From: Pelosinus propionicus DSM 13327
Lineage (GTDB): Bacteria; Bacillota; Negativicutes; DSM-13327
Length of the DNA stretch: 64,000 nucleotides
Direction: 5' to 3'
NCBI RefSeq assembly: GCF_900114615.1
Contig: NZ_FOTS01000001.1
Location: 1 to 64,000 of the forward strand
This document shows, one piece after another, positions 8,259-62,941 of the stretch (position 1 is the stretch's first letter; each line of letters begins with the position of its first letter). A program made the position numbers and the translations under genes. The notes below the pieces were generated by a model, which was not told where the DNA came from, made no database searches, and was given only the letters and a program-made list of their open reading frames with translations.

Positions 8259-8279
8259 GTGCCTTAATAGAATGTGTAA

Positions 8280-8566
8280 TCCGCTATGAGCAGGAGAAGT
8301 ACATATACGAACTTTGGATCAGCGAGTCGGTGACCAGGCAACTGGAGGTGTGATGACCGGCCCAAAGAGTCTATGGAATGGGCCTGTGAGCAGCTCACCG
8401 AACGCATATCATATGTTAGTAGGATGAGCCGGTTGCCACCGTTATTGGGCTAGGGTATCAGATGTAACATCTCGTACCTGAGTAGAGGGAAAGCATTAGC
8501 TTTCTAAATTAGGGTGGTATCGCGAATCATTTCGCCCCTTTCAAGGGGTGGAGTGATTTTTTTATT
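8280..8566 (+). promoter_or_regulatory. T-box leader, tRNA-Trp specific, controlling the trp operon
   Basis: The conserved T-box sequence AGGGTGGTATCGCG is at 8511-8524, followed by a terminator (CCCCTTTCAAGGGG within longer arms, then a T-run to 8566). Stem I has the AGTA motif near 8297 and a GAGTCGGTGAC apical region. On the descending arm the specifier position reads TGG (8374-8376), the Trp codon, placed like GGC in glycine T-boxes. Uncharged tRNA-Trp should stabilise the antiterminator and turn on the downstream genes. Established: T-box mechanism. Inferred: exact specifier. Confidence 0.93.
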
Positions 8567-25487: not shown

Positions 25488-25727
25488 AAAAAGGGTTGTG
25501 ATCTATCTCACAACCCCAAATTTACTCCAAAGAATAAACTAACGCTTGCGTGAGATAGCACTTCATCTAAAAGAACCTTTTAGATGACAGTCTTGTATTT
25601 ATTAAATACAAGCCCAACAACAAAAAATGGCATTTCTGCTGTTTCGGCAACTATTCCTTTCTATATAGCTCATTGCCCGCCAGCTCACTATATATACTGA
25701 TAATAATTGCGCCTCTATAATCACAAC
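25488..25727 (-). promoter_or_regulatory. Lysine riboswitch (L box) controlling the permease
   Basis: Minus-strand aptamer from about 25727 to 25549. Conserved pieces appear in order: AGAGGCGC, TAGTTGCCGAAA, TTGGGCTTG, GACTGTCATCTAAAAGG and TAGATGAAGTGCTATCTCACG. The expression platform is visible: the 3' strand of P1, CTATCTCAC, is also complementary to GTGAGATAG inside the terminator stem (25493-25516, followed by TTTTTATTTT). Lysine binding should favour termination. Confidence 0.92.
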
Positions 25728-45446: not shown

Positions 45447-45537
45447 TTGCTAATGGTGGTACGATTATAAGATCAAAAGTACTTAGATGTTATAATCTGT
45501 AATATTCCACACTAAATTATTGGAGGAGGGTTAATCT

Positions 45538-46563
45538 ATGAAAAGAAACTGGAAAGGACTTATGATGGCAACGCTCTTAGCAGGGGCATTGGTAGCTGGA
45601 TGTTCTAGCTCGACACCACCTGCTGCAGATGCAAACAAAGGTGGTAAAAATTTAATTGGTGTCGCAATCTATAAATTTGATGACACTTTTATGAGTGGTG
45701 TACGAAGTGCCATCTCCAAGGCTGCTGAAGGAAAAGCTCAATTGGAAATTGTTGATAGCCAAAACTCCCAACCAACCCAAAACGATAAAGTTGATTTATT
45801 TATTAACAAAAAAGCAAAAGCTCTTGCCATTAATCCGGTTGATCGTAATGCGGCAGGTGTAATTATTGATAAAGCAAAAACTGCAAATATCCCCGTAGTG
45901 TTCTTGAATCGTGAACCTTTGCCAGAAGATATGAAAAAGTGGGATAAGGTATATTATGTTGGTGCTAAAGCTGAACAGTCTGGAATTATGGAAGGTCAGT
46001 TAGTAGTTGACTATTTTAAAGCCCACCCTACCAAAGATGGAGTCATCCGATATGTTATGTTAAAGGGTGAGCCAGGTCACCAAGATGCTGAAATGCGTAC
46101 TAAATTTGCTATTAAAGCAATTGAAGATGCTGGCTTAAAAGTTGAAAAAGTTGCTGAAGATACCGCCATGTGGGATCGTGTAAAAGGCCAAGAAAAAATG
46201 GCAGCTTTCCTAGCAGCTCATGGGGATAAAATTGATGTTGTACTTGCAAATAATGATGATATGGCTTTAGGTGCTATTGAGGCATTAAAAGCTAAGGGAT
46301 ATTTTAAAGACGGAAAATTCATGCCTGTAGTTGGTGTTGATGCTACTGCTCCTGCATTAAAAGCTTTGGAAGAGGGCACACTTTATGGTACGGTTTTAAA
46401 TGATGCAAATAATCAAGGAAAAGCTACTTTCAATCTTACTGATGTATTAGCTCAAGGACAGACTCCGACTAAAGAAAATACTGGTTATACGATTACAGAT
46501 GGCAAGTATGTCTGGATTGATTATAAAAAAATTACGAAAGAAAATATGAACGAAGCCAAATAA
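45538..46563 (+). CDS. mglB: Galactose/glucose ABC transporter substrate-binding lipoprotein
   Basis: 341 residues. Lipoprotein signal peptide ending LVAGCSS, with Cys near 22 as lipid site. Periplasmic-binding protein type 1 fold: VAIYKFDDTFMSGVR, ALAINPVDRNAAG, VFLNREP, ANNDDMALGAIEAL, VVGVDATAPALKALEEG. These match MglB sugar-contact regions. First of the mglBAC set. Confidence 0.92.
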   Translation: MKRNWKGLMMATLLAGALVAGCSSSTPPAADANKGGKNLIGVAIYKFDDTFMSGVRSAISKAAEGKAQLEIVDSQNSQPTQNDKVDLFINKKAKALAINPVDRNAAGVIIDKAKTANIPVVFLNREPLPEDMKKWDKVYYVGAKAEQSGIMEGQLVVDYFKAHPTKDGVIRYVMLKGEPGHQDAEMRTKFAIKAIEDAGLKVEKVAEDTAMWDRVKGQEKMAAFLAAHGDKIDVVLANNDDMALGAIEALKAKGYFKDGKFMPVVGVDATAPALKALEEGTLYGTVLNDANNQGKATFNLTDVLAQGQTPTKENTGYTITDGKYVWIDYKKITKENMNEAK

Positions 46564-46591
46564 AAATCTTCTTTTGGGATCGGAAAATTTA

Positions 46592-46635
46592 AAAATGGCA
46601 AGGGGTAATGTATTTTGAGTTTCCCTTGCCATTTT
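46592..46635 (+). terminator. Hairpin between mglB and mglA
   Basis: AAAATGGCAAGGG and CCCTTGCCATTTT arms with an 18-base loop. It probably stops part of the transcripts or protects the mglB 3' end, giving more binding protein than transporter. Confidence 0.6.
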
Positions 46636-46687
46636 ACTTACTAATGGATAGTAAAATTGCCTTTGAGAGAAAGAGAGGCGCTTAATA

Positions 46688-48205
46688 ATGGCAGAAATTG
46701 AATTCTTACTTGAGATGAATAACATTTCTAAAGAGTTTCCAGGTGTTAAAGCACTTGATGACGTAACACTTAAAGTTAGACCTGGTACTGTACACGCTCT
46801 TATGGGAGAAAATGGTGCAGGCAAGTCAACGCTAATGAAATGTCTTTTTGGAATTTACCAGCAAGATGCTGGTGAAATTATCTTAAATCAGCAAAAACTA
46901 GAAATACATAATTCTAAAGATGCATTGAATTATGGTATATCCATGATTCATCAAGAATTGCATCCTGTTCCTCATCGAGATGTAATGGAAAATGTATGGT
47001 TAGGACGTTTTCCTATGACTGGTTTTGGTCCCTTTCAATTTGTAGACCATAAAAAAATGTATGCGGATACTACTGCCTTATTTCAACAATTGGAAATTGA
47101 TATTGACCCTAATGCATTAGTTAAAACCTTATCGGTATCGAAAGTGCAGTCTATCGAAATTGCTAAAGCTGTATCCTTTAATTCGAAAATTATTGTGATG
47201 GATGAACCGACATCTTCTTTGACTGGTAATGAGGTGGAACAGTTATTTAAGATTATACGTGACTTACGAAAAAGAGGAGTTTCGATCATTTATATATCTC
47301 ATAAAATGGAAGAAATTCTCCAAATATCAGATGATGTTACGATTATGCGAGATGGCAAATATATTGGTACCTGGAATGCCTCAGAACTGACTACAGACTT
47401 GATTATCTCTAAGATGGTGGGACGTGATCTCACCCAACGATTTCCAGAGCGCAGCAATGTACCGGGTGAAGTGGTCTTGCGAGTAGAAAATCTAACATCA
47501 CCGAATCCTCGATCTTTTAAAAATATTACATTTGATCTTCGAAAAGGCGAAGTCCTTGGAATTAGCGGACTTGTAGGTGCTCAGCGTACGGAGCTGGTAG
47601 AAGCAATTTTTGGACTGCGTACCATAGCAGAAGGTAAATTTATTTTAAATGGAAAAGAGGTTACAATTAAGACGCCTGCGGATGCAAAAAAATATAAAAT
47701 TGCTTTACTTACGGAAGAACGTCGTGTTACAGGGATTTTTCCGGTCCTACCTGTGGTTGAAAATACAGCGATTGCTGATCTAAATGCTTACCAAACATCT
47801 TATTTCTTTCTTAACGAGAAAAAGATGAAAGAAGATACAGTGAAGAGTGTTGAAAAGCTTAGAATAAAAACTCCCTCGATAAAGGAACTAATTAAGAATC
47901 TGTCTGGTGGGAATCAGCAAAAAGTTTTAATTGGACGCTGGTTGCTTACAGATCCGGATATATTGCTTCTTGATGAGCCAACTCGCGGTATCGATGTTGG
48001 TGCAAAATTTGAGATTTATACGATTATTACAGAGCTTGCCAAGCAAGGGAAGAGCATCATCATGATATCTTCTGAAATGCCTGAAATCTTAGGTATGTCT
48101 GATCGGATCATGGTAATGTGTGAGGGAAGGCTTACGGGTATATTGGATCAAAAGAATGCTACGGAACGAGAAATTATGCGTCATGCAACCTTATATTTGG
48201 CGTGA
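46688..48205 (+). CDS. mglA: Galactose/methylgalactoside ABC transporter ATPase
   Basis: 505 residues with two ATPase domains. First: MGENGAGKSTLMKCL Walker A, SVSKVQSIEIAKAV signature, IVMDEPTSSL. Second starts near 260, with LSGGNQQKVLIGRWL and LLLDEPTRGIDVGAK; its Walker A is degenerate (GLVGAQRTELVE), as is usual for this family. Partner of MglC. Confidence 0.94.
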   Translation: MAEIEFLLEMNNISKEFPGVKALDDVTLKVRPGTVHALMGENGAGKSTLMKCLFGIYQQDAGEIILNQQKLEIHNSKDALNYGISMIHQELHPVPHRDVMENVWLGRFPMTGFGPFQFVDHKKMYADTTALFQQLEIDIDPNALVKTLSVSKVQSIEIAKAVSFNSKIIVMDEPTSSLTGNEVEQLFKIIRDLRKRGVSIIYISHKMEEILQISDDVTIMRDGKYIGTWNASELTTDLIISKMVGRDLTQRFPERSNVPGEVVLRVENLTSPNPRSFKNITFDLRKGEVLGISGLVGAQRTELVEAIFGLRTIAEGKFILNGKEVTIKTPADAKKYKIALLTEERRVTGIFPVLPVVENTAIADLNAYQTSYFFLNEKKMKEDTVKSVEKLRIKTPSIKELIKNLSGGNQQKVLIGRWLLTDPDILLLDEPTRGIDVGAKFEIYTIITELAKQGKSIIMISSEMPEILGMSDRIMVMCEGRLTGILDQKNATEREIMRHATLYLA

Positions 48206-48221
48206 AAAAGGAGGTTAAAAA

Positions 48222-49235
48222 ATGAACTTTGATACGAAAAAATTGAATGAATTCTTTTTGCAATATGCAATCTATGGTGTTCTAATTGTTCTTATCATAG
48301 CAATTGCCATCTATAATTCAAATTTTTTATCAATAAATACCTTGCGTGATATTCTAATGCAGTCTTCCACTCGGGTAATCATTGCTCTTGGTGCTGGCTT
48401 TGTATTGATAACTGCAGGGGTTGATCTTTCCGCTGGACGTGTAGTAGGTCTGGCTGCAGTATTATCCGGTTCCATGCTGCAAATTGCAGACTACTCGCGA
48501 AGGTTTTTTCCAAATCTGCCTGATTTGCCAATTTGGATACCCATTCTCGTAGCTGTTATCGGCGGTCTTATTGTAGGTATACTCAATGGGTGGATTGTAG
48601 CTAAATTTAGTGTACCTCCCTTCATTGCAACATTAGGTACCTACGTTATGGTTTATGGTGTTAATTCGATTTATTTTGATATGAAGCCAAATGAATCACA
48701 GCCAATTGGTGGCTTAAGACCTGATTTTACAATCATCGGCTCGGGTTCAATTGGTAGTGGTCCCTATGCGATTCCCTATATCGTGCTGATAGCCCTGATC
48801 GTAGCTTTTGTTGTTTGGGTAATCTTCAACAAAACAAAGCTGGGGAAAAATATGTATGCCATTGGCGGTAATATTAATGCTGCAAAAGTTTCGGGAATTA
48901 ATGTTGGTCTTAATCTGATTATGATCTATGCAATTGCCGGAGCCCTTTATGGTTTTGCTGGTGTGTTGGAAGCTGCAAGAACAGGTGGTGCGACTAACAA
49001 TTATGGTAATATGTATGAGTTAGATGCAATTGCCGCTTGTGTAGTAGGTGGTGTTTCTACAACTGGCGGTATTGGCACAGTGCCAGGCATATTGGTAGGA
49101 GTAGTAATTTTTACTGTTATAAACTATGGTTTAACCTTTGTTGGAATGAACCCTTATTGGCAGCTTATAATAAAAGGTCTCATTATTGTCTCAGCGGTTG
49201 CAGTGGACATTCGAAAATATATTTCCAGAACCTAA
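48222..49235 (+). CDS. mglC: Galactose/methylgalactoside ABC transporter permease
   Basis: 337 residues with about ten hydrophobic segments. Conserved ITAGVDLSAGRVVGLAAVL near 68 and the GVSTTGGIGTVPGILVGV segment near the C-terminus fit the BPD_transp_2 sugar permeases. It starts 16 bases after mglA. Confidence 0.94.
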   Translation: MNFDTKKLNEFFLQYAIYGVLIVLIIAIAIYNSNFLSINTLRDILMQSSTRVIIALGAGFVLITAGVDLSAGRVVGLAAVLSGSMLQIADYSRRFFPNLPDLPIWIPILVAVIGGLIVGILNGWIVAKFSVPPFIATLGTYVMVYGVNSIYFDMKPNESQPIGGLRPDFTIIGSGSIGSGPYAIPYIVLIALIVAFVVWVIFNKTKLGKNMYAIGGNINAAKVSGINVGLNLIMIYAIAGALYGFAGVLEAARTGGATNNYGNMYELDAIAACVVGGVSTTGGIGTVPGILVGVVIFTVINYGLTFVGMNPYWQLIIKGLIIVSAVAVDIRKYISRT

Positions 49236-50718: not shown

Positions 50719-50821
50719 ATCAGAAAGATTTGATTCAAACCGTATTTTTCTTGTATTTACATATTAGATTTGCTGATGGCCATAGAACTTTTAATAATAT
50801 TTTAGAAGAGGAGGATACATG

Positions 50822-52309
50822 ATGAGTTATTTTTTGCTGAAAGAACCGCCAAGACGGGAACATCGCTTAAATGCATGCATTGCCAGTGGTGGGACCTTAT
50901 CGGATATGAAGAATCGGAAAATGAGATGTTGTGTACCAGATGGAGAGAGGACATTTACCCAAAATAATATCTGCTTATTGCTACCAGCCTTAGGAATGAT
51001 GAATAGCATACCGAATAGTGTGGTGCTAATGCATGGAGCAGTGGGATGCGGATCTTCTTCTCATGGTGGAAATGTAGGGGTTCGAGCTGGAAATAATCAC
51101 CGCTGGGGTGTGATTAAAGATGGCACATGGCTTTCTACAGCTTTAAATGAGAGCGATGTAATCTGCGGGGGTGAAGAGAAATTAGAAGCTGCTATTCGCG
51201 AAATTGATGAACATTATAAGCCCATGATTATCTTTGTTGTAGCTGGCTGTGTTCCAGGGATTATCGGTGATGACGTTGATGGTGTTGCTCAGCGTATTCA
51301 ATCTGAGGTGTCTGCTAATATTCTTCCAGTACATTGTGAAGGATTTAAAACAAAGATTTGGGCTACAGCCTATGATGCGGTGTATCATGCTATTGGCAGG
51401 GTCATGCTGCAGGATACATCTAAAAATATAGCTTTAAAAAAGCCGGAAAAGCCTACCGTAAATCTTATGAATGTTTCTTCTATGGGTCGGGTAGATGAAG
51501 TTGAATTGGAACGATTATTACGTGCTTTAGGATTAGAGGTTAATATCTTTCCCGTATTTTCTAAACCTGAGAAAATGTATGCCATGACCCATGCAGATCT
51601 TTCGATTAGCACATGTCCCACTCATGATGATTACTTATTAAAACACTTGCAAGAAAAATATGGGATTCCTTTTGTGTTAAAACATATGCCGATCGGTATC
51701 GGCAATACAAGTGAATGGCTAAGAAATGTAGCTGCCTTTTTTCAACTAGAAAATCAGGTAGAAAAAATTATTGCAGAAGAAGAAGCAGAGTTAGAAACAG
51801 CACTGCAAGAATTTAAAGAATTTTTTAGAGGTAAAAAAGTTTTTGTTAGTGCTGGAGAATTCCGGGCATTGGCCACTGCTATCTTATTAGCGGAACTTGG
51901 CTTTGAAGTAGTGGCGGTCCGGTCTTTTCATCATGATGAATTTGCTGATTCCGAATACGAGAAATTAAGTAAGATTACGGCAAAGGATTTCCCTTTAAAT
52001 ATTGCAAACTGCCAGCCCTTTGAAGAGGCGAATCTCATACGCCGTGTAAAACCCGATCTTTTTCTTGGGCATATGAATGGTAATTCTACAGCCGCAAAAT
52101 TGGGGATTGCAACGAATGTAATTTATAATGTCGGACTGCAGTTCATTGGTTATCAGGGAGCCTATCAGCTAGCCCGCCGTTTATACAGGCAACTAACCAA
52201 CCCGGGATTTAATCAAAATATTAGTAAATGGGTACAGCTTCCCTATTCTGAAGATTGGTATCAACAAGATCCATTTGCACATATCAAACAATCGGAAGGG
52301 GAAGTCTAA
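50822..52309 (+). CDS. Nitrogenase-like alpha-type protein 1 (NifE-like)
   Basis: 495 residues from ATG 50822, 7 bases after GAGGAGG. Oxidoreductase/nitrogenase component 1 fold. Cluster-type cysteines are at about 51, 76 (HGAVGC) and 143 (AGCVPGIIGDDVDG), spaced 25 and 67 as in NifD/NifE. The cofactor Cys is retained near 265 in STCPTHDDYLLKHLQEKYG. The position aligned with the NifD cofactor His is Asn (IYNVGLQFIGYQG), as in NifE. I infer a cofactor scaffold role with the beta-type protein downstream. Extra Cys near 19 and 36-37 are shared with alpha 2. The stop overlaps the next ATG by one base. Confidence 0.85.
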   Translation: MSYFLLKEPPRREHRLNACIASGGTLSDMKNRKMRCCVPDGERTFTQNNICLLLPALGMMNSIPNSVVLMHGAVGCGSSSHGGNVGVRAGNNHRWGVIKDGTWLSTALNESDVICGGEEKLEAAIREIDEHYKPMIIFVVAGCVPGIIGDDVDGVAQRIQSEVSANILPVHCEGFKTKIWATAYDAVYHAIGRVMLQDTSKNIALKKPEKPTVNLMNVSSMGRVDEVELERLLRALGLEVNIFPVFSKPEKMYAMTHADLSISTCPTHDDYLLKHLQEKYGIPFVLKHMPIGIGNTSEWLRNVAAFFQLENQVEKIIAEEEAELETALQEFKEFFRGKKVFVSAGEFRALATAILLAELGFEVVAVRSFHHDEFADSEYEKLSKITAKDFPLNIANCQPFEEANLIRRVKPDLFLGHMNGNSTAAKLGIATNVIYNVGLQFIGYQGAYQLARRLYRQLTNPGFNQNISKWVQLPYSEDWYQQDPFAHIKQSEGEV

Positions 52310-53655
52310 TGAAACATTTTATTGAAAGACCACGATTTACTTGTGCCTTAGGAGGTGCCATCGCGACAGTTACGGCTTTGCCGCGAGCAGTACATATATT
52401 ACATGCTCCTCCTGGTTGTGCTGGGAACACGGCTTGGACGCAGATGGGAGGATGTGGACTTCAGGTAGGCGGATATTGCGGCGGTATTAGTATACCTGGG
52501 ACGAATGTTCAAGAACGAGAAGTTGTTTTTGGTGGCTCAGATCGACTTGAAGAACAGATTCAAAATACGCTGAAAGTAATGGATGCTGACTTGTATGTCG
52601 TCTTAACGAGCTGTGTGGCAGAGATTATTGGTGATGATGTGGATTCTGTCATAGCTCCTTTTCAAAATGATGAAACCCAAATTATCTCTGCTGAGACAGG
52701 GGGCTTTAAGGGCAATTCATACCTAGGATATGAAATTGTTCTTGAAAGCATTTTAAAGAATTATGTCACTCGTGGTGAAGCAACTGTTAAAGGCAGGGTC
52801 AATCTATGGGGTATTGCTCCATCTTTTGATGTCTTTTGGCGAGGTAATTTAGAAGGATTACGCCAGCTTTTAAGCAGATTGGGATTGGAAGTAAACACAT
52901 TCTTTACAGTGGATGATCATCTTGATGGAATTCGTCAGGCAAGCAGTGCCCAGCTCAATATCGTTGTTTCCGATGTATTAGGCTGGCAAGCTGCCGAAAT
53001 TAGCCAGGAACTACATGGAATACCTTATCTAGTGAGTCCCTTGCCGATTGGACCTAGTGCGAGTGATTTGTTTCTGCGAAGGGTTGGTGAAGCGTTAAGT
53101 CTAAGGGAGGCTTTGATTGAAGAGGTTATTACTACTGAAAATCAACGCTATTATAAACTGCTTGAACCTCTTACTGATTGCTACAATGATATGGATCTGC
53201 AGCGATATGCAGCTGTTGTGGGAGACTCTAATTATGCAACGGCCATTACTGCCTTTCTTGAAAATGATTTTGGATGGTTGCCACAGGTGATTGTTATTAC
53301 GGATACATTAATCGAGGAACAACAGGAGCGCATCATAAATCGATTATCGAGTCTGAAGTCAGGACGTATACCTAAAATTATCTTCAAAGGTGATTCGACA
53401 GATATTGCAAAATGTATTAAAGATCATTGGGAAGGTAGCAAAACGCAATATGGAAAATATGTAAATGCATTATCTCCTGCATTTGTTGTCGGCAGCTCAT
53501 TAGATCGGCCATTGGCACAGGAGTTAGGTGCTGCGCATTTGAGTATTAGTTTTCCAGTATCCAATAGAGCCGTAATTGACAGAGGTTATACTGGCTACCA
53601 GGGCGGTTTGCGGCTGATTGAGGATCTAATTAGTGCCATTATCGTAAATCGATAG
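52309..53655 (+). CDS. Nitrogenase-like beta-type protein 1 (NifN/K-like)
   Basis: 448 residues, lacking the N-terminal extension of NifK. Cysteines at 12 (RFTCALGGA), 37 (HAPPGC) and 102 (LTSCVAEIIGDDVDS) match cluster ligands of NifK/NifN. Cys 57 is also shared with beta 2. Conserved AETGGFKGNSYLGYE and the C-terminal GAAHLSISFPVSNR / GYTGYQGGLRLIED are present. Its start overlaps the alpha 1 stop codon, so the two are made together as a heteromer. Whether this pair is scaffold or enzyme is judged from alpha 1 (Asn in place of His). Confidence 0.85.
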   Translation: MKHFIERPRFTCALGGAIATVTALPRAVHILHAPPGCAGNTAWTQMGGCGLQVGGYCGGISIPGTNVQEREVVFGGSDRLEEQIQNTLKVMDADLYVVLTSCVAEIIGDDVDSVIAPFQNDETQIISAETGGFKGNSYLGYEIVLESILKNYVTRGEATVKGRVNLWGIAPSFDVFWRGNLEGLRQLLSRLGLEVNTFFTVDDHLDGIRQASSAQLNIVVSDVLGWQAAEISQELHGIPYLVSPLPIGPSASDLFLRRVGEALSLREALIEEVITTENQRYYKLLEPLTDCYNDMDLQRYAAVVGDSNYATAITAFLENDFGWLPQVIVITDTLIEEQQERIINRLSSLKSGRIPKIIFKGDSTDIAKCIKDHWEGSKTQYGKYVNALSPAFVVGSSLDRPLAQELGAAHLSISFPVSNRAVIDRGYTGYQGGLRLIEDLISAIIVNR

Positions 53656-53728
53656 AAGAGAAATGTTAATACGGCTAAATTTGTGTTTAAATAACACATC
53701 TTTTTCTCCAGCTGTATCGTAGGTCATA

Positions 53729-53796
53729 GTGCTGATTAGGTGAAACCTAAAGGCAAAGAAGTTTCCTTTTTGGGAAAGCTCTTTGCCTTTTTTATT
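53729..53796 (+). promoter_or_regulatory. Leader motif 2: CTGA-hairpin-AAGGC with terminator
   Basis: CTGA at 53732-53735, stem TAGG/CCTA with loop TGAAA, then AAAGGCAAAGA, which opens a terminator closed by TCTTTGCCTTTTTT. Upstream I see no strong promoter, so it may act on readthrough from the alpha1-beta1 genes. Confidence 0.75.
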
Positions 53797-53837
53797 TTAT
53801 GAATATAAAAATTGCCCTTAAATTAGGAGGAATTTGC

Positions 53838-54209
53838 ATGTCGAAATGCCTTAGCAAGGAACCTAATTCAACCGAATCTCAACCAATTCAAGTATTAGAA
53901 ATTATTAATTATTTTTTACATACGGCTTATACTGGATTTTTGATCGTATCGGTACAAGATGGATATGTTGTTAAAATGGAGAAAACAGAAAGATTTACAA
54001 TTACAGCCAAGAGTCGCCAAGGAAGTTATGTGAAAATTGAGAAGCCTAAAGAGGAACATCCTCTTTGCGTACGGATATTAACAGAACTGCAAGATATTCG
54101 TTATGGTCAGCTGATCATTCGTTTAGATAGTGGGCAAGTGGATCATTTGGAGAAAACAGAAAAAAGACGCATCCATGAATTTGAAGGAATTGATGGAGCG
54201 GGCATATAA
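53838..54209 (+). CDS. Tandem DUF2292 (YezD-like) protein
   Basis: 123 residues from ATG 53838 after AGGAGG. Two copies of a short domain: IINYFLHTAYTGFLIVSVQD with VVKMEKTERF (about 18-58), and ILTELQDIRYGQLIIRLDSG with VDHLEKTEKRRI (about 78-117). DUF2292 proteins usually have one copy; I recall them next to sulfur-assimilation genes, consistent with this context. The function is unknown. Confidence 0.7.
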   Translation: MSKCLSKEPNSTESQPIQVLEIINYFLHTAYTGFLIVSVQDGYVVKMEKTERFTITAKSRQGSYVKIEKPKEEHPLCVRILTELQDIRYGQLIIRLDSGQVDHLEKTEKRRIHEFEGIDGAGI

Positions 54210-54262
54210 AGGAGGCTTTCTGGGATAGACATGAGAGACGGCTTTAGGAGGTTGGGAGTAAC

Positions 54263-54382
54263 GTGTCTAATGATAAAAAAAGCACCGAATCTAATTGTTA
54301 AATTACAGATGAGCATGTATTATCAGGAATGGCAATTTTGGATCACTATGCTTATGATGCGGGTACAATTGATATTAGTTAA
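54263..54382 (+). pseudogene. Possible small ORF interrupted by an in-frame TAA
   Basis: GTG 54263, about 10 bases after AGGAGG, opens VSNDKKSTESNC, then TAA at 54299-54301, then ITDEHVLSGMAILDHYAYDA and six more codons to TAA at 54380. The second half is protein-like. It may be a decayed small gene between the DUF2292 and NifB genes. A functional 12-residue peptide or a chance frame are alternatives. Confidence 0.3.
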
Positions 54383-54412
54383 ATATACAGTAAAAGTAAA
54401 TGAGGTGATACA

Positions 54413-55249
54413 ATGAGAAATTCTTGCTTTAGCAATATTCCTCTTTCTATTTTAGAACAGACACAAAAACATCCCTGCTATTCTGTAGAAGTGCACCAAC
54501 AGTTTGCTGTTATGCATTTGCCAGTGGCACCGACGTGCAATATACAGTGCAATTATTGTAATCGCAGCTTTGATTGCATCAATGAAAACCGCCCTGGTGT
54601 AACGAGTGAAAACTTAACTCCTGCTCTTGCCATCGAAAATTATCGTGGCGTAAAAGGCAAAATCGCAGAACTTGACGTGGTAGGCATTGCAGGTCCGGGA
54701 GATGCCTTAGCGGATTGGCAGCAGACAAAAGAAACGATAGAACAAATTAAAAAGATAGATCCGGACATTGTATTTTGTTTATCTACAAATGGCTTATTAT
54801 TAGCAAAATATGCACCAGAGATTGTTCAGTTGGGAATTCATCATGTAACCGTTACCATAAATGCCGTCAATCCCGTGATCGGAGCGCAAATTTATAAATT
54901 TGTACTCTACGAAGGGATGAAATATGAAGGCTTAGAAGCAGCACAGTTGCTTTATAAACAGCAGTTAGCAGGTATTGAGTATCTTGCTGATCATGGTGTA
55001 TTAATAAAAATCAATGTTGTTATGTTAAAAGGCATTAACGATCAGCATATCCCAGATGTTGTAAAAAAAATGAAAGAGCTGGGGGCTTTCATTATTAATA
55101 TTATTCCTCTTATTCCTGCTCCTGGAAGCAGCTTTGCAGAAAATCCTCAAGTGAGTGAACAAGAAATTAACGAAATGAGAAAGCGTTGTCAATTAGGACG
55201 ACAGCAGGTGCGCGATTGCGGACAGTGCAGAGTTGATAAGGTAGGGTAA
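54413..55249 (+). CDS. nifB: NifB-type radical SAM cofactor synthase, minimal form
   Basis: 278 residues. Contains the NifB hallmark HLPVAPTCNIQCNYCNRSFD with the radical SAM CxxxCxxC and the following NENRPGVTS. GIAGPGDALA, STNGLLL and INVVMLKGIND fit the barrel. The C-terminus has DCGQCRVDKVG, corresponding to the CRADA(I/V)G cluster-ligand end of NifB. It stops there, so the NifX-like domain of longer NifB proteins is absent. NifB makes the 8Fe-9S-C cofactor core from SAM and two 4Fe-4S clusters. Its presence implies that a complex carbide cluster is built for this locus. Confidence 0.93.
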   Translation: MRNSCFSNIPLSILEQTQKHPCYSVEVHQQFAVMHLPVAPTCNIQCNYCNRSFDCINENRPGVTSENLTPALAIENYRGVKGKIAELDVVGIAGPGDALADWQQTKETIEQIKKIDPDIVFCLSTNGLLLAKYAPEIVQLGIHHVTVTINAVNPVIGAQIYKFVLYEGMKYEGLEAAQLLYKQQLAGIEYLADHGVLIKINVVMLKGINDQHIPDVVKKMKELGAFIINIIPLIPAPGSSFAENPQVSEQEINEMRKRCQLGRQQVRDCGQCRVDKVG

Positions 55250-55288
55250 TTTAATGTTTCTTTTGTCGGATTTCCAGTAAGAAGGCTC

Positions 55289-55316
55289 TTGACAAGAAAA
55301 TAAATTGCTGTATAAT
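55289..55316 (+). promoter_or_regulatory. Strong promoter for the second nitrogenase-like operon
   Basis: TTGACA at 55289-55294, a 16-base spacer and TATAAT at 55311-55316. A second TATAAT (55449-55454) lies before leader motif 4 but has no good -35 box. Confidence 0.75.
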
Positions 55317-55338
55317 GAAGTAAATGTTATTATATTCT

Positions 55339-55400
55339 AGCTGATCAGAGAAGCTGAAGGCTAAAGTATTTTGCTGCTAGCAGAATGCTTTAGCTTTTTT
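55339..55400 (+). promoter_or_regulatory. Leader motif 3 (first of a tandem pair)
   Basis: CTGA at 55341-55344, stem CAG/CTG with loop AGAAG, then AAGGCTAAAG opening a terminator that closes with CTTTAGCTTTTTT. It lies about 20 bases after the expected transcription start. Confidence 0.75.
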
Positions 55401-55460
55401 ATTTTTTAAAATTGGTATTAGCTAGAAGAATAATAAGGAATATTAATCTATAATGAAGTT

Positions 55461-55533
55461 GACTGATCGGCAGACCATGCCGAAGGCAAAGAAAATTCTT
55501 TCTGTATAGAAAGGAATTTTCTTTGCTTTTTTT
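55461..55533 (+). promoter_or_regulatory. Leader motif 4 (second of a tandem pair)
   Basis: CTGA at 55463-55466, stem CGG/CCG with a 9-base loop, then AAGGCAAAGAAAATTC opening a terminator closed by GAATTTTCTTTGCTTTTTTT. The CGG/CCG pair replaces CAG/CTG of motif 3, a compensatory change. Confidence 0.75.
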
Positions 55534-55609
55534 ATTAATTAGAAAATAATATTTTCTAACTTATTGATGCAATCCATTTGCAGAGAGTAATGATTATGGA
55601 GGCAAGTAT

Positions 55610-56950
55610 ATGAGCAATTTTATCGACAGACCACGTTATTTATGTACTATGGGAGGGGCGGTGTCAACTTTAAAAGCACTACCGAGAGCGATCTCAATTA
55701 TTCATGCAGCTGCTGGCTGCGGCGGCAATTTTGGCAATGCATTAAATGGCGCTGCTGGCTACTTGGGAAGCGGATATTGTGCTGGGCAGGCATTACCCAG
55801 TTCCAATGTTTTTGAAAGAGACATTGTATTTGGTGGTGAGGAGCGATTAGAGGAACAAATCGCTAGTACCTTAGAAATTGTTGATGGAGATCTATATTTT
55901 GTTGTTACAGGGTGTATGGTAGATATTATCGGCGATGATGCAGTGTCAGTTGCTAGAAGATTTAATCAGCAGGGAAAGCCGGTTTTTGCTGCTGAAACAG
56001 GAGGATTTAAAGGAAATGCCTACACCGGATATGATATTGTTCTGAGTACATTATTTAGAGATTTTGTGGAAAAAAGACCAGTAAAAAATAAAAAGATCGT
56101 AAACTTATTCGGTCTGGTTCCCATCCAGGATGTATTTTGGAAAGGAAACTTAAATGTATTAAAAGATTTAATTCAAAAATTAGGCTATAAAGTAAATACC
56201 TTTTTTGGTGAAGGAGAAACCATTGAAAATTTAAAACAAGCTGGCGAAGCTCATTTAAATATTGTGGTGTCCGATGTCTATGGTGTTAAATCAGCGAAAA
56301 TATTTGAAGAAGTTCATGGCGTTCCCTATATTGTTGCAAACTTGCCGATTGGTCCTGCTGGTACAAAAGAATTCTTAGAGACAGTAGGCAAAGCGCTAGG
56401 GGTTGATGAACTGCTGATTTCAACTGTAATAGCAGAAGAAAAAGCCCGTTATTACAGCTATGTAGAACGATTGGCTGATGTATATAATGATTTGGATTTT
56501 CAACGTTATAGCGTAGTGGTTGCAGATGCAAATTATGCTCCAGCACTAACAAGATTTATTGCTGATGATTTAGGATGGCTGCCGGAATTAGTTGTAATTA
56601 CAGATCTTCTTTCCGAAGATGAGGAAAAGCTGGTCGCAAAGAAATTTACTACGTTTTCATCCGGTGTCATTCCCAAAGTGGTGTTTGATACGGATACTTC
56701 CAATGTGAGCAAACATTTTAATAAAGCATGGCCGCGTAATAATAATAATCGCTATTTTAATGCGTTTAGTCCCGCATTCGTTTTTGGCAGCAGCTTGGAC
56801 AGAGAATTTTCCGATAGCCTAGGAGCTGCTCATTTAAGTGTATCCTATCCCATATCCAACCGAGTTGTTTTGGATCGTGCCTATTTAGGCTATAGTGGGT
56901 CCTTACGTTTAATTGAAGATGTTATAGGATTATTAGTAGGTAGCAGATAA
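55610..56950 (+). CDS. Nitrogenase-like beta-type protein 2 (NifK-like)
   Basis: 446 residues. Same cysteine spacing as beta 1: 12 (RYLCTMGGA), 37 (HAAAGC) and 102 (VTGCMVDIIGDD), plus Cys 57. AETGGFKGNAYTGYD and GAAHLSVSYPISNRVV are conserved between the two beta proteins, showing a duplication. It precedes its alpha partner by 15 bases, the reverse of the first pair. It is short compared with NifK (about 520), as in nitrogenase-like enzymes. Inferred to be half of the catalytic component. Confidence 0.85.
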   Translation: MSNFIDRPRYLCTMGGAVSTLKALPRAISIIHAAAGCGGNFGNALNGAAGYLGSGYCAGQALPSSNVFERDIVFGGEERLEEQIASTLEIVDGDLYFVVTGCMVDIIGDDAVSVARRFNQQGKPVFAAETGGFKGNAYTGYDIVLSTLFRDFVEKRPVKNKKIVNLFGLVPIQDVFWKGNLNVLKDLIQKLGYKVNTFFGEGETIENLKQAGEAHLNIVVSDVYGVKSAKIFEEVHGVPYIVANLPIGPAGTKEFLETVGKALGVDELLISTVIAEEKARYYSYVERLADVYNDLDFQRYSVVVADANYAPALTRFIADDLGWLPELVVITDLLSEDEEKLVAKKFTTFSSGVIPKVVFDTDTSNVSKHFNKAWPRNNNNRYFNAFSPAFVFGSSLDREFSDSLGAAHLSVSYPISNRVVLDRAYLGYSGSLRLIEDVIGLLVGSR

Positions 56951-56965
56951 GAGGAGGTTTTATAT

Positions 56966-58474
56966 ATGGATTATATTAAAGAAAAAGCACCACCTGTGCG
57001 GGAAGAACGATTGCGGGCTTGTAATGCATATGGTGGATCTTGTGGAAATTTGGTAGAGAAGTCTAAAAAAGGATGCCTGAATGGGATTAAAAGAAAGTTT
57101 TCTCAAACTCAAGGGTGTCAACTGAATCTAAGTTTGGCAATTATCAATACCATTCGGGATGCTGTCGTCATTGTTCATGGTCCGGTTGGCTGCGGCGGTG
57201 CTAGTCTAGCCCAAGCCGGTGTGAATAAGGGGTTTCAAAAATTGCGGGATAGCAATGCCCGAGGACTCATATGGGTGAACACAAATATGGGGGAAAACGA
57301 GGTTGTTCAAGGGGGAGAGTCTAGACTACGAGACGCTATATTGCATGCAGAAAAGGAGTTTCGTCCCAGTGCGATTATCATTGTAAATAGCTGCGTACCA
57401 GCGATTATTGGTGATGATATCGATGGTGTTGTTGAGCAGGCACAAAAAGAAGTCAAAGCCAAAATCGTCCCTGTTCATTGCGAAGGATTTAAGACGAAGA
57501 TCATGGCCAGTGCTTATGATGCTGTCTATCATGGCATACTTCGCAACTTAATACCTCATGAGAAGATCATTCAGGATGAAAAAACTGAATTAGAAACATT
57601 GCAAGAAAAGTACCGCGCGAGTCGTACTGTCAATGTATTGAATGTTTCTTCCATGAGCCGTATTGATGAGTATGAATTAGTTCGCTTATTGAAAGCGATT
57701 GATTTGGAATTAAATATTCTTCCTTGTTATGCTCATCCAGATGATTTTCAAAAAGCCACTGAAGCTGCTTTAAATGTAAGTATTTGTGCTACTCATGATG
57801 ATTATTTCGTAGAACATTTAAAAGAGAAGTATGGTATTCCTTTTATTCTTCGTACGATTCCCATTGGCGTTCAATATACCAATCGATGGATTTTAGATAT
57901 CGCTAAATTTTTTGGAGCTGAAGAGGCTGCTCAGCGTTTTATCGATCAAGAAGTAAAGCAACTAGAAGAAGCCATTGCTCCCTTTAGAGATATATTCAAA
58001 GGGAAGAGAGTATTAATTGGCGGTGGTGAAATTCGCGTTGTTGCCAATGCGGAGCTGTTACATTATTTGGGATTTGAGATTATTGGGCTAAGAGCATATC
58101 ATTATGATCAATTTGCCGATGAAATGCTCGGTGAGCAAGATATTATTAAGCAAATTCCTTTTAATGTTGCAACAGGTCAACCTTTTGAACAGGCAAATCT
58201 AAATCACAATTTAAAGCCTGACTTATATGTTGGTCATGTGAATACGAATGTGTGGGCTGCCAAACAAGGAATTCCAGTAATACCCTTGTTTCACCAGAGT
58301 CAACTATTCTTGGGCTACACTGGAATTTACGAATTTGCCAGACGTTTAGCCAGAATACTGCGGAATCCTTCTTTTAATCGTAATTTAAAAGATAATGTTC
58401 ACCTTCCTTACTTTGAAGAGTGGTATGACAAGGATGCCTTTTCCTATATCGATGAAAGCGAGCTGCAGGCCTAG
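56966..58474 (+). CDS. Nitrogenase-like alpha-type protein 2 (NifD-like, probable catalytic)
   Basis: 502 residues. Cluster cysteines are at 51, 76 (HGPVGC) and 143 (NSCVPAIIGDDIDG). The cofactor Cys at 274 lies in SICATHDDYFVEHLKEKYG, matching the NifD segment that ligates the FeMo cofactor. His 443 in LFHQSQLFLGYTG aligns with the region of NifD His 442; alpha 1 has Asn there. This Cys+His pair suggests that it carries the finished cofactor and is the catalytic subunit. Extra Cys at 19, 26 and 37 are not part of the classic NifD pattern. Substrate unknown. Confidence 0.85.
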   Translation: MDYIKEKAPPVREERLRACNAYGGSCGNLVEKSKKGCLNGIKRKFSQTQGCQLNLSLAIINTIRDAVVIVHGPVGCGGASLAQAGVNKGFQKLRDSNARGLIWVNTNMGENEVVQGGESRLRDAILHAEKEFRPSAIIIVNSCVPAIIGDDIDGVVEQAQKEVKAKIVPVHCEGFKTKIMASAYDAVYHGILRNLIPHEKIIQDEKTELETLQEKYRASRTVNVLNVSSMSRIDEYELVRLLKAIDLELNILPCYAHPDDFQKATEAALNVSICATHDDYFVEHLKEKYGIPFILRTIPIGVQYTNRWILDIAKFFGAEEAAQRFIDQEVKQLEEAIAPFRDIFKGKRVLIGGGEIRVVANAELLHYLGFEIIGLRAYHYDQFADEMLGEQDIIKQIPFNVATGQPFEQANLNHNLKPDLYVGHVNTNVWAAKQGIPVIPLFHQSQLFLGYTGIYEFARRLARILRNPSFNRNLKDNVHLPYFEEWYDKDAFSYIDESELQA

Positions 58475-58530
58475 AATAACGAGGAGTGCTTATTTCTTTC
58501 TGCAAAACTTATTAAAGAGGAGTGTTATAT

Positions 58531-59460
58531 ATGTCCAAAATTGCAAACAGCGTAACAGATTTAATCGGTCAGACACCTTTGCTAAAGTTGAATCGTTTGG
58601 CAGAGGGGACGGCAGCCGAGGTTGTCGTGAAACTTGAATTATTCAATCCAGGTGGCAGTATTAAAGACCGTATTGGTTTTAGCATGATCAAAGATGCAGA
58701 AGAAAAAGGACTAATAAAAAAAGATACTGTAATCATTGAACCAACCAGTGGCAATACAGGGATTGCTTTGGCCCTTATTGCAGCAGCCAGAGGATATCGT
58801 CTAATCTTAACCATGCCAGAAACAATGAGTACGGAAAGACGCAGTTTACTTAAGGTTTACGGTGCTGAGTTGGTACTGACACCTGGTGCTGAGGGGATGA
58901 AAGGTGCTGTGCGTAAAGCAGAAGAATTAGCAGCTCAAATTCCAAATTCTTTTGTACCTCAGCAATTTAATAATCCTGCAAATCCTGAAATTCATCGAGC
59001 TACAACAGCAGAAGAAATTTGGGAGGATACGAATGGTAAAGTTGATATTGTCGTGGGAGGCGTGGGCACTGGCGGTACAATCACTGGTGTAGGTGAAAAT
59101 CTAAAAAAACGGAATCCCAATATTAAAATCGTGGCTGTAGAACCGTTTGGTTCCCCTGTTCTTTCGGGAGGCCAGCCAGGACCTCATAAAATTCAAGGAA
59201 TTGGTGCTGGATTTTTACCGAATGTATTGAATCTGGATATTGTAGATGAGATCTATAAAGTCAAGAATGAGGAAGCACTAGAAATTGCTCAGCGATTAGC
59301 AAGAGAAGAAGGGATTCTCGTAGGCATTTCATCGGGAGCAAGCGCTTTTGCGGCATTGCAGATTGCCAGTCGTCAGGAAAACCAAGGTAAGCTGATCGTT
59401 GCTGTACTCCCGGATACAGGTGAAAGATATATTAGTACGGCACTGTTTGAGGATAATTAA
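58531..59460 (+). CDS. cysK: Cysteine synthase (O-acetylserine sulfhydrylase)
   Basis: 309 residues from ATG 58531 after AGAGGAG. PLP Lys in [15 protein letters not shown] near 42, [33 protein letters not shown], the GIGAGFLPN loop and [12 protein letters not shown]. It joins sulfide and O-acetylserine. It follows alpha 2 by 56 bases without a terminator, so it is probably in the same operon, which ties the nitrogenase-like enzyme to sulfur assimilation. Confidence 0.93.
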
Positions 59461-59568: not shown

Positions 59569-60348
59569 GTGATAAGGATTCAAGAATTGAGCAAGATGTA
59601 TATAACACCCAGTTCCAAAATCGTTGCACTGGAAAATGTAAATCTGCAAATTCAGCAGGGAGATATCTTTGGTATTATTGGCTTTAGTGGTGCAGGTAAA
59701 TCAACTCTAATTCGCTGCCTAAATCGTTTAGAAGAACCTGATTCCGGAAAAATAGTAATTGCGGGTCAAGAAATTACGGCTATGAATAAAAAAGAATTAC
59801 AATTGGCAAGAAGAAAGATTGGGATGATTTTTCAGCAATTCAACTTATTAGATGCGAAAACAGTATTTGAAAATGTAGCTTTTCCGTTACAGGTTTCGAA
59901 TTACCCTAAAAAACAAATTAAAACTCGAGTAGAAGAGATTCTGGAGCTGGTTGGTTTAGCGAATAAGTCCAAGGCATATCCATTGCAGCTCAGTGGAGGA
60001 CAAAAGCAAAGAGTCGGTATTGCACGTGCTCTTTCTAATGAACCGAGTGTGCTGCTTAGTGATGAAGCTACTTCGGCCCTTGATCCTCAAACAACCTATT
60101 CCATTTTAGAATTATTAAAAGATATCAATCAAAAACTGGGTTTAACCATTGTTTTAATTACCCATGAATTAGACGTCTTAAAACATATTTGCAATCATAT
60201 GGCTGTTATTGAGCATGGAAAAATAGTTGAAACAGGAGTAGTGGAAAAGTTCTTTTTAAATCCTGAAAGTGATACTGCTAAACGCTTTATCAGCATTCTT
60301 CAAGGGTTCCAAGAAAAAAGAGTATATAAGGAGGGAGAGGGCATTTGA
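59569..60348 (+). CDS. metN: MetN-like ABC transporter ATPase without NIL domain
   Basis: 259 residues, GTG start. Walker A GFSGAGKSTLIRCLNR near 38, Q-loop FQQFNLL, signature LSGGQKQRVGIARAL and Walker B VLLSDEATSALDPQ. DEATSALD is typical of MetN. MetN is usually about 340 residues with a C-terminal NIL domain that senses methionine; this one ends soon after the ATPase core, so that feedback site is missing. It overlaps metI by 4 bases. Confidence 0.88.
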   Translation: MIRIQELSKMYITPSSKIVALENVNLQIQQGDIFGIIGFSGAGKSTLIRCLNRLEEPDSGKIVIAGQEITAMNKKELQLARRKIGMIFQQFNLLDAKTVFENVAFPLQVSNYPKKQIKTRVEEILELVGLANKSKAYPLQLSGGQKQRVGIARALSNEPSVLLSDEATSALDPQTTYSILELLKDINQKLGLTIVLITHELDVLKHICNHMAVIEHGKIVETGVVEKFFLNPESDTAKRFISILQGFQEKRVYKEGEGI

Positions 60349-61013
60349 ATGATGATGTATTAGAACTATTGTTTACTGGCCTTGGCGAAACTCTTTATAT
60401 GGTATTATTATCGACTCTTATTGCCTTGATTCTTGGATTGCCCTTGGGAATTATATTAGTTGCTACTGAAAAGGGGAACATTCTAGAATCGCCTAGAATT
60501 AATAAAGTATTAGGTACCATTATTAATGTGGTACGATCCTTTCCCTCTATTATTTTAATTGTTGTGCTGCTTCCATTGGCTCGATTTATTGTGGGGACGA
60601 CATTGGGGGCAACAGCAGCTATTGTTCCTTTATCCATTGGTGCAGCGCCTTTTATTGCAAGAATTATTGAGAATAGCCTTAAAGAAGTCAGCTTTGGTAA
60701 GATTGAAGCTGCGATGGCTATAGGAGCAAATCCCTTAACCATTATTACAAAGGTATTAATTCCAGAAGCTTTGCCATCTCTTATCCGTGGTCTAACGATT
60801 GCTGTTATCGGCATTACTGGCATGACGGCGGTTGCAGGAGCGATTGGTGCAGGAGGTCTGGGGAGTCTTGCTATACGATTTGGGTATATGAGATACCGAG
60901 ATGATATTATGCTAGCCACCATTATAACGCTAGTTATTCTTGTTCAAGGTGTACAATTGGCTGGAGATTATTTAGCTACTTACATTAACCGAAAACGATA
61001 CAAATTTGATTAA
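60345..61013 (+). CDS. metI: MetI-like methionine-type ABC permease
   Basis: 222 residues, TTG start at 60345 after AAGGAGG, overlapping the metN stop. Five hydrophobic segments; GNILESPRINKVLGTIINVVRS split across residues 38-60 and the EAA-type loop EAAMAIGANPLTIITKVLIPEAL are typical of MetI. No MetQ-type binding protein lies nearby. The substrate may be methionine or another organosulfur compound. Confidence 0.9.
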   Translation: MNDDVLELLFTGLGETLYMVLLSTLIALILGLPLGIILVATEKGNILESPRINKVLGTIINVVRSFPSIILIVVLLPLARFIVGTTLGATAAIVPLSIGAAPFIARIIENSLKEVSFGKIEAAMAIGANPLTIITKVLIPEALPSLIRGLTIAVIGITGMTAVAGAIGAGGLGSLAIRFGYMRYRDDIMLATIITLVILVQGVQLAGDYLATYINRKRYKFD

Positions 61014-61402: not shown

Positions 61403-61462
61403 AAAATAATTACAGATAGTATAATGAAAAATTGTATATTGAAATTGAAAGGAGATAATGTA

Positions 61463-62062
61463 GTGTTCATTAAAAAGTCTTATTTAAGTTCTTTAATGCT
61501 ATTGATTGTAGGTATTTCCTTTGCTTTAGGTTTTGGCTATTATAAAAATGCAGTAGCCAAAGAGCAGGCAGCAGCGACCGTTGCTATTAATGGTGAATCT
61601 ATTGCAGCCACCCAAAGTATTGTTTTTGACATAGCGGATCAAGGGATGCCTAAAAAGTGGCTGCAGCCTAATCAGATATTGATAGCAAGCTATTTGATTA
61701 AAAATGAAAGTAAGAATCCATTAGCTATTCAAGTAGAAGCTGTTGATTTTGTTAAGCAGGTCGTTTTAGAAGTTGGTTCTCCTGATATTAAAAAGCCTTC
61801 TGCTATCTATATGGGTACTGTGGAATCAGGAAAAACATTGCGTGTGAAAGTCAAAATGGATCTTGCTGATCAACATTTCAGTCAAACGAAGCAGCAGATC
61901 GGTGTGCTTCAGATTGTGGACATACAAACCGGTGCTCTGCTTGGAAATACATCTGTTTATGCCATGAATTCCTCACAATCATTGGATCAGGATCAGAAAT
62001 CAGTGACACCGTCAACTGTTCATGAAACACATGAATCCCATGGATCACACGAAGAAAAGTAA
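61463..62062 (+). CDS. Exported or membrane-anchored protein with His-rich tail
   Basis: 199 residues from GTG 61463, preceded by AAAGGAG; the ATG at 61424 has no ribosome site. N-terminal membrane anchor or signal (residues 9-27), then a beta-rich domain with a DUF-like NQILIASYLIKNES segment. The C-terminus HETHESHGSHEEK has four His and could bind metal. Family not recognised. It is first gene of the three-gene unit behind leader motif 5. Confidence 0.65.
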   Translation: MFIKKSYLSSLMLLIVGISFALGFGYYKNAVAKEQAAATVAINGESIAATQSIVFDIADQGMPKKWLQPNQILIASYLIKNESKNPLAIQVEAVDFVKQVVLEVGSPDIKKPSAIYMGTVESGKTLRVKVKMDLADQHFSQTKQQIGVLQIVDIQTGALLGNTSVYAMNSSQSLDQDQKSVTPSTVHETHESHGSHEEK

Positions 62063-62074
62063 GGAGATCATAAG

Positions 62075-62941
62075 ATGAATCAGCGAGAAATAAAACGTAT
62101 TTTAGGATATTTTGCAGGATTATTCTTGTTTTTTGCCCCTTTTGCTTATTACCAGAAAACACTTTCTGTTTGGTTAGGCGGCTCTCAAGCATCTGATATT
62201 CATAGTTTTTGTTTGCGCATTCCGTTATTGAATGTGTTAACAGGACAAAGTATTGAGATATTCAATGTCGGCATTATTTCTTTATTATTATTGGTCAGCG
62301 CGGCTTTTTTCCTAGGTCCTTTCTTTTGCGCCCACCTTTGCGCGAGTGGTGCGTTACCTGAATATCTTAGCCGTTTGATGCCAAAGCGGTTTAAAATCGA
62401 TTGGCAACGTTCAGTAAATCCAGTTCCCATACGATATGGATTTTTTGTAGGGTATCTGCTTTCGCCTTTTTTGGCTGGTTCGATAGCGTGTGCGCTTTGT
62501 AACTATAGTTTTATGGAAAGGCTGATTGTTGGCGGGGTACAAGGCGATATCGGTCCTTTGGGCTCTACTGCCATTATTACAGCTATTTTATGGCTGGGGA
62601 TCTTTGGTGTTATGGCTAAAGGAGGACGGGGATTTTGCAGTTATTTATGCCCTGTTGGAGCGCTGCAAAGTGCTGTACATAGTGTGGGTGCTCGATTTCG
62701 ATTTACTTATAAATTACGCTTTATCCCAAGCAAATGTGTGAATTGCAAACAGTGCGTAAAAAAATGTCCAATGGGTGCTCTTAGTCATAAGGATGGTATT
62801 TTATCTTATGAAGTATATAATTGTATTACTTGCGGACAATGCGCTGGGGTTTGTGCAAAAAACGCTCTTGCCTATGGCACCGGCGAAAGTGGCTGGCAAA
62901 AAGAGAATGCTGGAGAGCCAGAGCTGGAGTTAGTAAAATGA
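62075..62941 (+). CDS. NapH/CcoG-like membrane polyferredoxin
   Basis: 288 residues. About five membrane segments, two CxxxCxxGA motifs (FFCAHLCASGALP near 88 and FCSYLCPVGALQS near 190), then two ferredoxin motifs, CVNCKQCVKKCP near 227 and CITCGQCAGVCAKNAL near 250, the latter with Ala in place of the usual Pro. Such proteins pass electrons from quinol or other membrane donors. In this locus it could supply electrons for the nitrogenase-like enzyme; that is an inference from shared leader control. Confidence 0.88.
   Translation: MNQREIKRILGYFAGLFLFFAPFAYYQKTLSVWLGGSQASDIHSFCLRIPLLNVLTGQSIEIFNVGIISLLLLVSAAFFLGPFFCAHLCASGALPEYLSRLMPKRFKIDWQRSVNPVPIRYGFFVGYLLSPFLAGSIACALCNYSFMERLIVGGVQGDIGPLGSTAIITAILWLGIFGVMAKGGRGFCSYLCPVGALQSAVHSVGARFRFTYKLRFIPSKCVNCKQCVKKCPMGALSHKDGILSYEVYNCITCGQCAGVCAKNALAYGTGESGWQKENAGEPELELVK

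Follow-up and report, generated by a model that had tools for sequence, protein, structure and literature searches.

Two nitrogenase-like subunit pairs in Pelosinus propionicus belong to an uncharacterised Group IV clade and are putative reductive C-S lyases for sulfur assimilation

Methylthio-alkane reductase (Mar) and isethionate reductase (Isr) carry out the only sulfur reactions so far assigned to Group IV nitrogenase-like enzymes. Mar, whose defining activity is the reduction of methylthio-ethanol, DMS or EMS, cleaves C-S bonds using a P-cluster and an [Fe8S9C] cluster (PMC12552129), and its MarDK component from Rhodospirillum rubrum has been solved (PDB 9FMG, 9D9U). Isr (IsrBHDK) of Rhodobacter capsulatus, encoded beside ssuCAB and a cysteine desulfurase gene, releases sulfite from isethionate (PMC11423573). 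Heliophilum fasciatum and other heliobacteria have two further sets, NflDK2 and NflDK4, published without a mechanism or family-wide context, their roles being called unknown by the authors (PMC9147875). Here we analyze two alpha/beta pairs, A and B, that flank a nifB gene in the first 64,000 nucleotides of contig NZ_FOTS01000001.1 of Pelosinus propionicus DSM 13327; this whole stretch is called the window below. We propose, with a probability of roughly 0.68, that the pairs serve sulfur assimilation as nitrogenase-like reductive C-S lyases driven by ATP, each pair being the catalytic component (DK2) of a separate enzyme.

Pair A comprises alpha-A, a NifD/MarD-like catalytic subunit of 496 residues (50819..52309), and beta-A, a NifK/MarK-like subunit of 448 residues (52309..53655), the two genes overlapping by a single base, at which the alpha-A stop codon ends and the beta-A ATG begins. 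Pair B starts with the MarK-like beta-B (446 residues, 55610..56950), followed by the MarD-like alpha-B (502 residues, 56966..58474), and a NifB of 278 residues is encoded between the pairs (54413..55249), all on the plus strand. A preliminary description of the DNA, made from its letters, had reported two pairs around NifB at 50822-58474 in opposite gene order. That arrangement stands: the order is alpha-beta and then beta-alpha, and all open reading frames (ORFs) are intact and confirmed by Pfam, with Oxidored_nitro (PF00148) spanning the whole length of the four subunits (229-281 bits, cut-off 28.6). The subunits, with dN/dS values of 0.03-0.13, and NifB, with values of 0.15-0.22, are under purifying selection. 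The window pairs form the left edge of an island of seven component-1 pairs in 38 kb of the same contig (C78, 50.8-88.8 kb), which start at 50.8 (A), 55.6 (B), 64.3 (C), 68.7 (D), 73.0 (E), 77.9 (F) and 86.0 kb (G), the last five lying past the window.

Alpha and beta trees agreed in joining types A, B and F, to the first two of which the window pairs belong, in one clade, with support of 96/96 (alpha) and 95/98 (beta) in the drawn tree and of 62/87 for the exact beta split with all labelled rows. A second clade united types C, D, E and G, Mar and the NfaDK-type proteins (type G, to which Heliophilum NflDK1 belongs), while Nif/Anf/NifE and Bch each separated at 100/99. The branch uniting both Group IV clades was weak (64/60 in one tree, 80/82 in another); IsrD, Endomicrobium NfaDK, VnfDK and CfbD were not part of these trees. 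Placement of both pairs inside a characterised clade, named in the preliminary description as a result that would refute its reading, did not occur: a position of A/B/F within Mar was rejected by the approximately unbiased (AU) test (p = 0.00016 for alpha, 0.0485 for beta). Between a root position of A/B/F nearer the Nif side and one nearer the Mar side, the same test did not discriminate (p = 0.33, alpha).

Among solved proteins, the Mar subunits are the best relatives by sequence (alpha, E 2.9e-57 versus 2e-32 for the next; beta, with MarK as best relative of beta-B, 2.2e-77 versus 4e-23). All subunits of pairs A and B miss the TIGR equivalog cut-offs for nitrogenases, and the best profile score of the alpha subunits is to NifE, below cut-off. 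Tree position together with gene order and locus correspondence assigns type A to the clade of NflDK4 and type B to that of NflDK2. Members of the A/B/F clade come from Bacillota, Spirochaetota, Planctomycetota, Synergistota and Geobacteria; termite guts, soil or sediment are the source of many. These comparisons give good support to A, B and F being a Group IV nitrogenase-like clade outside Nif/Anf/NifEN and Mar, and it is likewise well supported that this clade is a real, uncharacterised one within a known kind.

Three cysteines per subunit are predicted to hold the P-cluster, namely Cys52/77/144 in alpha-A, Cys51/76/143 in alpha-B and Cys12/37/102 in both betas; the positions reported earlier (alpha 51/76/143, beta 12/37/102) are right for pair B, those of alpha-A being shifted by one. 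Among relatives (99 alphas and about 94 betas), conservation of these residues is 93-99%. The second cluster would be bound by Cys266 and the loop-I His418 in alpha-A and by Cys274 and the loop-I His424 in alpha-B. Equivalents of their MarD counterparts, Cys270 and the loop-I His429 (numbering checked against PMC12552129), are present in 95 and 92 of the 99 alphas, respectively. The histidine position is Gly in NifD and in two of three NifE-type rows, so that the predicted cluster anchoring is of the Mar and not of the nitrogenase type. Alpha-B, modelled as a single chain (predicted local distance difference test score 84, predicted template modelling score 0.86), also has MarD as its best fold match (9FMG; template modelling score 0.82/0.87).

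Despite these likenesses, which extend to a NifB-type maturase and a sulfur-related context, the pairs differ from MarDK. The Arg428-His429 pair has been proposed as a Mar hallmark (PMC12552129); an Arg428 equivalent occurs in 8 of 9 Mar rows and 34 of 37 alphas of types C, D, E and G, but in none of the 99 A/B/F alphas, which together with the clade test leads us to reject membership in Mar. In addition, His194 is not conserved, Phe199 is replaced by Tyr, and the position of Trp195 retains Trp in type A but carries Met, Gln or Val in types B and F, which suggests that the substrates of pairs A and B differ. The clade has a signature of its own, consisting of CxTHDD just after the cluster cysteine (CATHDD in alpha-B; His277 in 94%), Arg357, Trp103, Arg240 and a beta Cys57, present in beta-A, all of them candidate pocket residues. 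Unlike Mar, the clade also has cysK and an Ssu-type transporter in the operon, and a true MarDK is encoded elsewhere in the host (contig C77).

Isr, which serves anaerobic organosulfur use, is likewise a Group IV enzyme with similar neighbors. However, IsrD keeps one of the three P-cluster cysteines and lacks the Cys275 equivalent, and IsrB is not a NifB orthologue (PMC11423573), whereas the pairs keep all these ligands and are accompanied by a genuine NifB. Identity with Isr is rejected on the presence of all three P-cluster cysteines and Cys274, the IsrD features being taken from the published description and not from an alignment.

With NifDK, NifEN and AnfDK the pairs share the fold, the P-cluster cysteines, the Cys275 equivalent and, presumably, dependence on NifB. 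That they could be an alternative N2-fixing enzyme is nevertheless highly improbable. N2 fixation has been proposed for the Group IV NfaDK of Endomicrobium and of Heliophilum (PMC9147875), and the AU test does not fix how A/B/F stand to Nif at depth (p = 0.33), but the proposed fixer NflDK1 is of type G and belongs to the other clade. Equivalents of the NifD loop-II His442 and of Gln191/His195 are not conserved in A/B/F alphas, and the loop-I His replaces the conserved Gly424. Moreover, the neighbors of the pairs are sulfur genes, and the host has separate, full nif and anf sets. The inference that the substrate is not N2, made in the preliminary description, is thus supported. So is its conclusion that the pairs are not NifDK, by this evidence and not by the argument then given, the missing NifK N-terminal extension, which is weak. 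Several real nitrogenase beta chains lack that extension.

The window NifB scored 366 bits against TIGR01290 (cut-off 343.65) and carries the HPC, CxxxCxxC, ENRPG and C-terminal DCGQCR motifs. The match covers profile positions 5-274 of 441 and, as it ends there, the NifX-like C-terminal domain is absent, bearing out the earlier view of a minimal NifB with full motif ends. The genome encodes three further NifB, with which the protein shares 63-65% identity. NifB was found in all 27 genomes carrying this alpha type, consistent with a cluster that is made by NifB and, as in Mar, operates without NifEN. From this co-occurrence and the conservation of both cluster ligands we infer that the pairs hold a P-cluster and an [Fe8S9C] cluster, in line with the carbide-type cofactor suggested previously.

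The 5.4-Mb host genome (134 contigs) has 27 PF00148 matches, including a complete nifHDKEN and an anfHDGK set, each with a nifB and a nifV of its own. Among the island pairs are two cysK genes, metQ, genes for a cysteine desulfurase, ThiF/MoeB-like and NifX-like proteins, a second NifB and two NifH, and an Ssu-type ABC system. One NifH (71642-72463 of C78, minus strand; L028:11642-12463) is 95% identical to that of the nif cluster; the other, at contig position 93697, is 49-50% identical to both. Two divergent loci were seen in other contigs. On C69 (L032, 5910-8493 and 10671-12029), three PF00148 proteins lie amid cobaltochelatase- and CobO-like genes and a TonB-type receptor gene, possibly a tetrapyrrole-related nitrogenase-like system. 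On C73 (L033, 35440-38739), a third divergent HDK set adjoins iron/siderophore-type ABC transport genes.

Two pairs flanking one nifB, with alphas scoring best against the NifE profile, could be read as a NifEN-like pair assembling the cofactor for the other, as had been proposed. We consider such a division of labor very unlikely. Both pairs share clade and ligand set, and pairs occur independently of each other across the clade. In genome G178 (100% complete, 0% contamination), PF00148 matches just two proteins, an alpha and a beta that both belong to the A/B/F clade and are encoded in an operon ordered nifB-nifX-nifH-cysK-beta-alpha-ssuA-ssuC-ssuB (L195, 5488-14471; ssu names by family similarity). 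Genome G086 (97% complete) has one pair and only a sub-cut-off PF00148 fragment; nifB lies upstream of the pair, and nifH, cysK and an Ssu-type system are present as well. In the sister genome G001, pair A is destroyed by a deletion that joins alpha residues 1-143 in frame to beta residues 268-448 (L191:9314-10282), the OscA and NifB genes being left in place; pair F is absent, and pair B is intact and 99% identical to that of the window. The two single-pair genomes and the retention of B without an intact A or F in G001 argue strongly that each pair works alone, with no second pair as scaffold, and a NifEN-type split between A and B is rejected. G001 and G004 have, between NifB and pair B, an extra type-E-like pair that the window does not have.

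Next to the pairs lie genes of sulfur metabolism. A cysK gene whose product is a cysteine synthase (58522..59460, plus strand; TIGR01139, 482 bits, cut-off 351) begins 48 bp downstream of alpha-B and is followed on the same strand by genes for a MetN-like ABC ATPase (59569..60348; TIGR02314, 344 bits over profile positions 1-242 of 343, below cut-off and shorter than the profile) and a MetI-like methionine ABC permease (60345..61013; NF008049, 218 bits, cut-off 212). Between beta-A and NifB, 53799..54209 (plus strand) codes for an OscA/DUF2292-like protein with two DUF2292-like repeats (PF10055, E 2.6e-9; NCBIfam OscA, E 3.8e-5, below cut-off), a probable sulfur-starvation accessory; similar small ORFs were found in 16 related loci by a full-sensitivity search.

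The association with sulfur genes was examined in 27 non-redundant loci with enough flank, which were gathered by alpha similarity and are mostly from Bacillota; clustering at 80% identity removes relatedness only partly. Within 9 kb, cysK occurred in 19, NifH in 13 and NifB in 11 of the loci; an Ssu-type ABC gene was adjacent in 15, and at least one cysK, Ssu or Met gene was present in 26. Under a strict rule (same strand, at most 600 bases), cysK stood beside 15 of the 48 A/B/F pairs and beside none of the 27 other component-1 alphas used as the control (Fisher p = 6e-4); NifDK loci were too short for a 9-kb neighborhood control. Type F pairs had cysK directly beside them in 7 of 9 cases.

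For the proposed C-S lyase, the following course can be envisaged. When sulfate or sulfide is scarce, an organosulfur compound of the sulfonate or thioether type would be imported by an Ssu- or Met-type transporter. By analogy with the family, a shared NifH-type reductase, encoded at contig position 93697, would deliver electrons at the expense of ATP. These would pass through the P-cluster held by six cysteines to the NifB-made [Fe8S9C] cluster held by Cys274 and the loop-I His424 (alpha-B numbering), with neither a NifEN step nor homocitrate required. Reductive cleavage of the C-S bond, suggested by the neighboring genes and the Mar and Isr precedents, would then release sulfide, which the neighboring CysK would fix into cysteine.

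The released product is where the readings diverge. PF01077, the sulfite/nitrite reductase family, was absent from G178 and from G236 (96% complete), while it was matched in 11 of 14 control genomes. With cysK in its operon and no PF01077, sulfite would be a dead end in G178, making sulfide, or a thiol yielding sulfide, the likelier product; from these two genomes, sulfide as the direct product appears more likely. Alternatively, the pairs might produce sulfite, the product put forward for isethionate reductase, or, like Mar, a thiol (for example methanethiol), CysK then standing downstream only in a general sulfur-assimilation sense. Both characterised sulfur-related relatives make sulfite or a thiol (PMC12552129, PMC11423573), Ssu-type transporters suit sulfonates, PF01077 proteins are found in most host genomes, and genes for a MetNI transporter follow downstream in the window. 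We regard this alternative as doubtful though worth keeping in view, given G178 and G236 and active sites that differ, IsrD lacking equivalents of Cys275 and Cys62/154 (PMC11423573) that A/B/F retain.

The pairs might also act as an ATP-dependent nitrogenase-like sulfite reductase, turning sulfite from elsewhere into sulfide for CysK. This would account for cysK in the operon and for the missing PF01077 in G178 and G236, and multi-electron reduction suits a P-cluster with an L-cluster. It is nonetheless improbable: it leaves seven pairs and dedicated organosulfur-type transporters unexplained, and the host genome already has PF01077 proteins. We know of no precedent for a sulfite reductase of this kind.

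Several points also weigh against the C-S lyase proposal itself. Most host genomes hold a sulfite reductase, which leaves two genomes as the basis for sulfide being the direct product, and the lyase activity, cluster type and sulfide product are deduced from sequence and analogy. The neighborhood points to a pathway, not to a reaction, and the Ssu-type names reflect family-level similarity, SsuA_fam matches being below cut-off. Type A adjoins cysK in only 2 of 12 cases and URO-D (MtaA-like) methyltransferase genes in 4 of 7 flanked loci; given these corrinoid-methyltransferase-type neighbors, its product may differ. The latter association agrees with the published location of MarHDK-like Group IV-A genes close to corrinoid methyltransferase clusters (type I mlp; PMC10418091), whereas types B and F are tied to cysK instead. 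One type A pair (L200, 4344-11714) lies in a corrinoid methyltransferase-like cluster with URO-D proteins and proteins of 218 and 557 residues that resemble a corrinoid protein and its activase.

Elsewhere in the window, genes for a ROK regulator and a ribose/sugar-type ABC transporter lie directly upstream of the island (44235-49235). Genes for a secreted protein and a membrane 4Fe-4S protein (61424-62941), which also adjoin a type A pair in Clostridium polyendosporum (L097), may belong to the electron supply. A sulfur riboswitch (S-box or other) was not found upstream of the pairs; the Rfam matches were limited to one lysine riboswitch and a pair of T-boxes, all away from the pairs. The lysine riboswitch and a T-box leader scored above the Rfam gathering scores (25548-25725, minus strand, and 8277-8542, plus strand) and are unrelated to the pairs.

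With its remodelled pocket and a complete set of nitrogenase-type ligands, the A/B/F clade offers a comparison point for how the protein scaffold, rather than the metal cluster, sets nitrogenase chemistry. It also opens to direct tests the ways in which anaerobes obtain sulfur from organic compounds, the G178 operon being a minimal one with everything for expression in one place. Tentatively, and at somewhat less than even odds, A/B/F would be a distinct [Fe8S9C] enzyme class that fully desulfurises sulfonates or thioethers and hands sulfide straight to CysK. Anaerobes without a sulfite reductase would thereby be able to convert organic sulfur into cysteine at the expense of ATP, and one bacterium could hold several such enzymes with different substrates.

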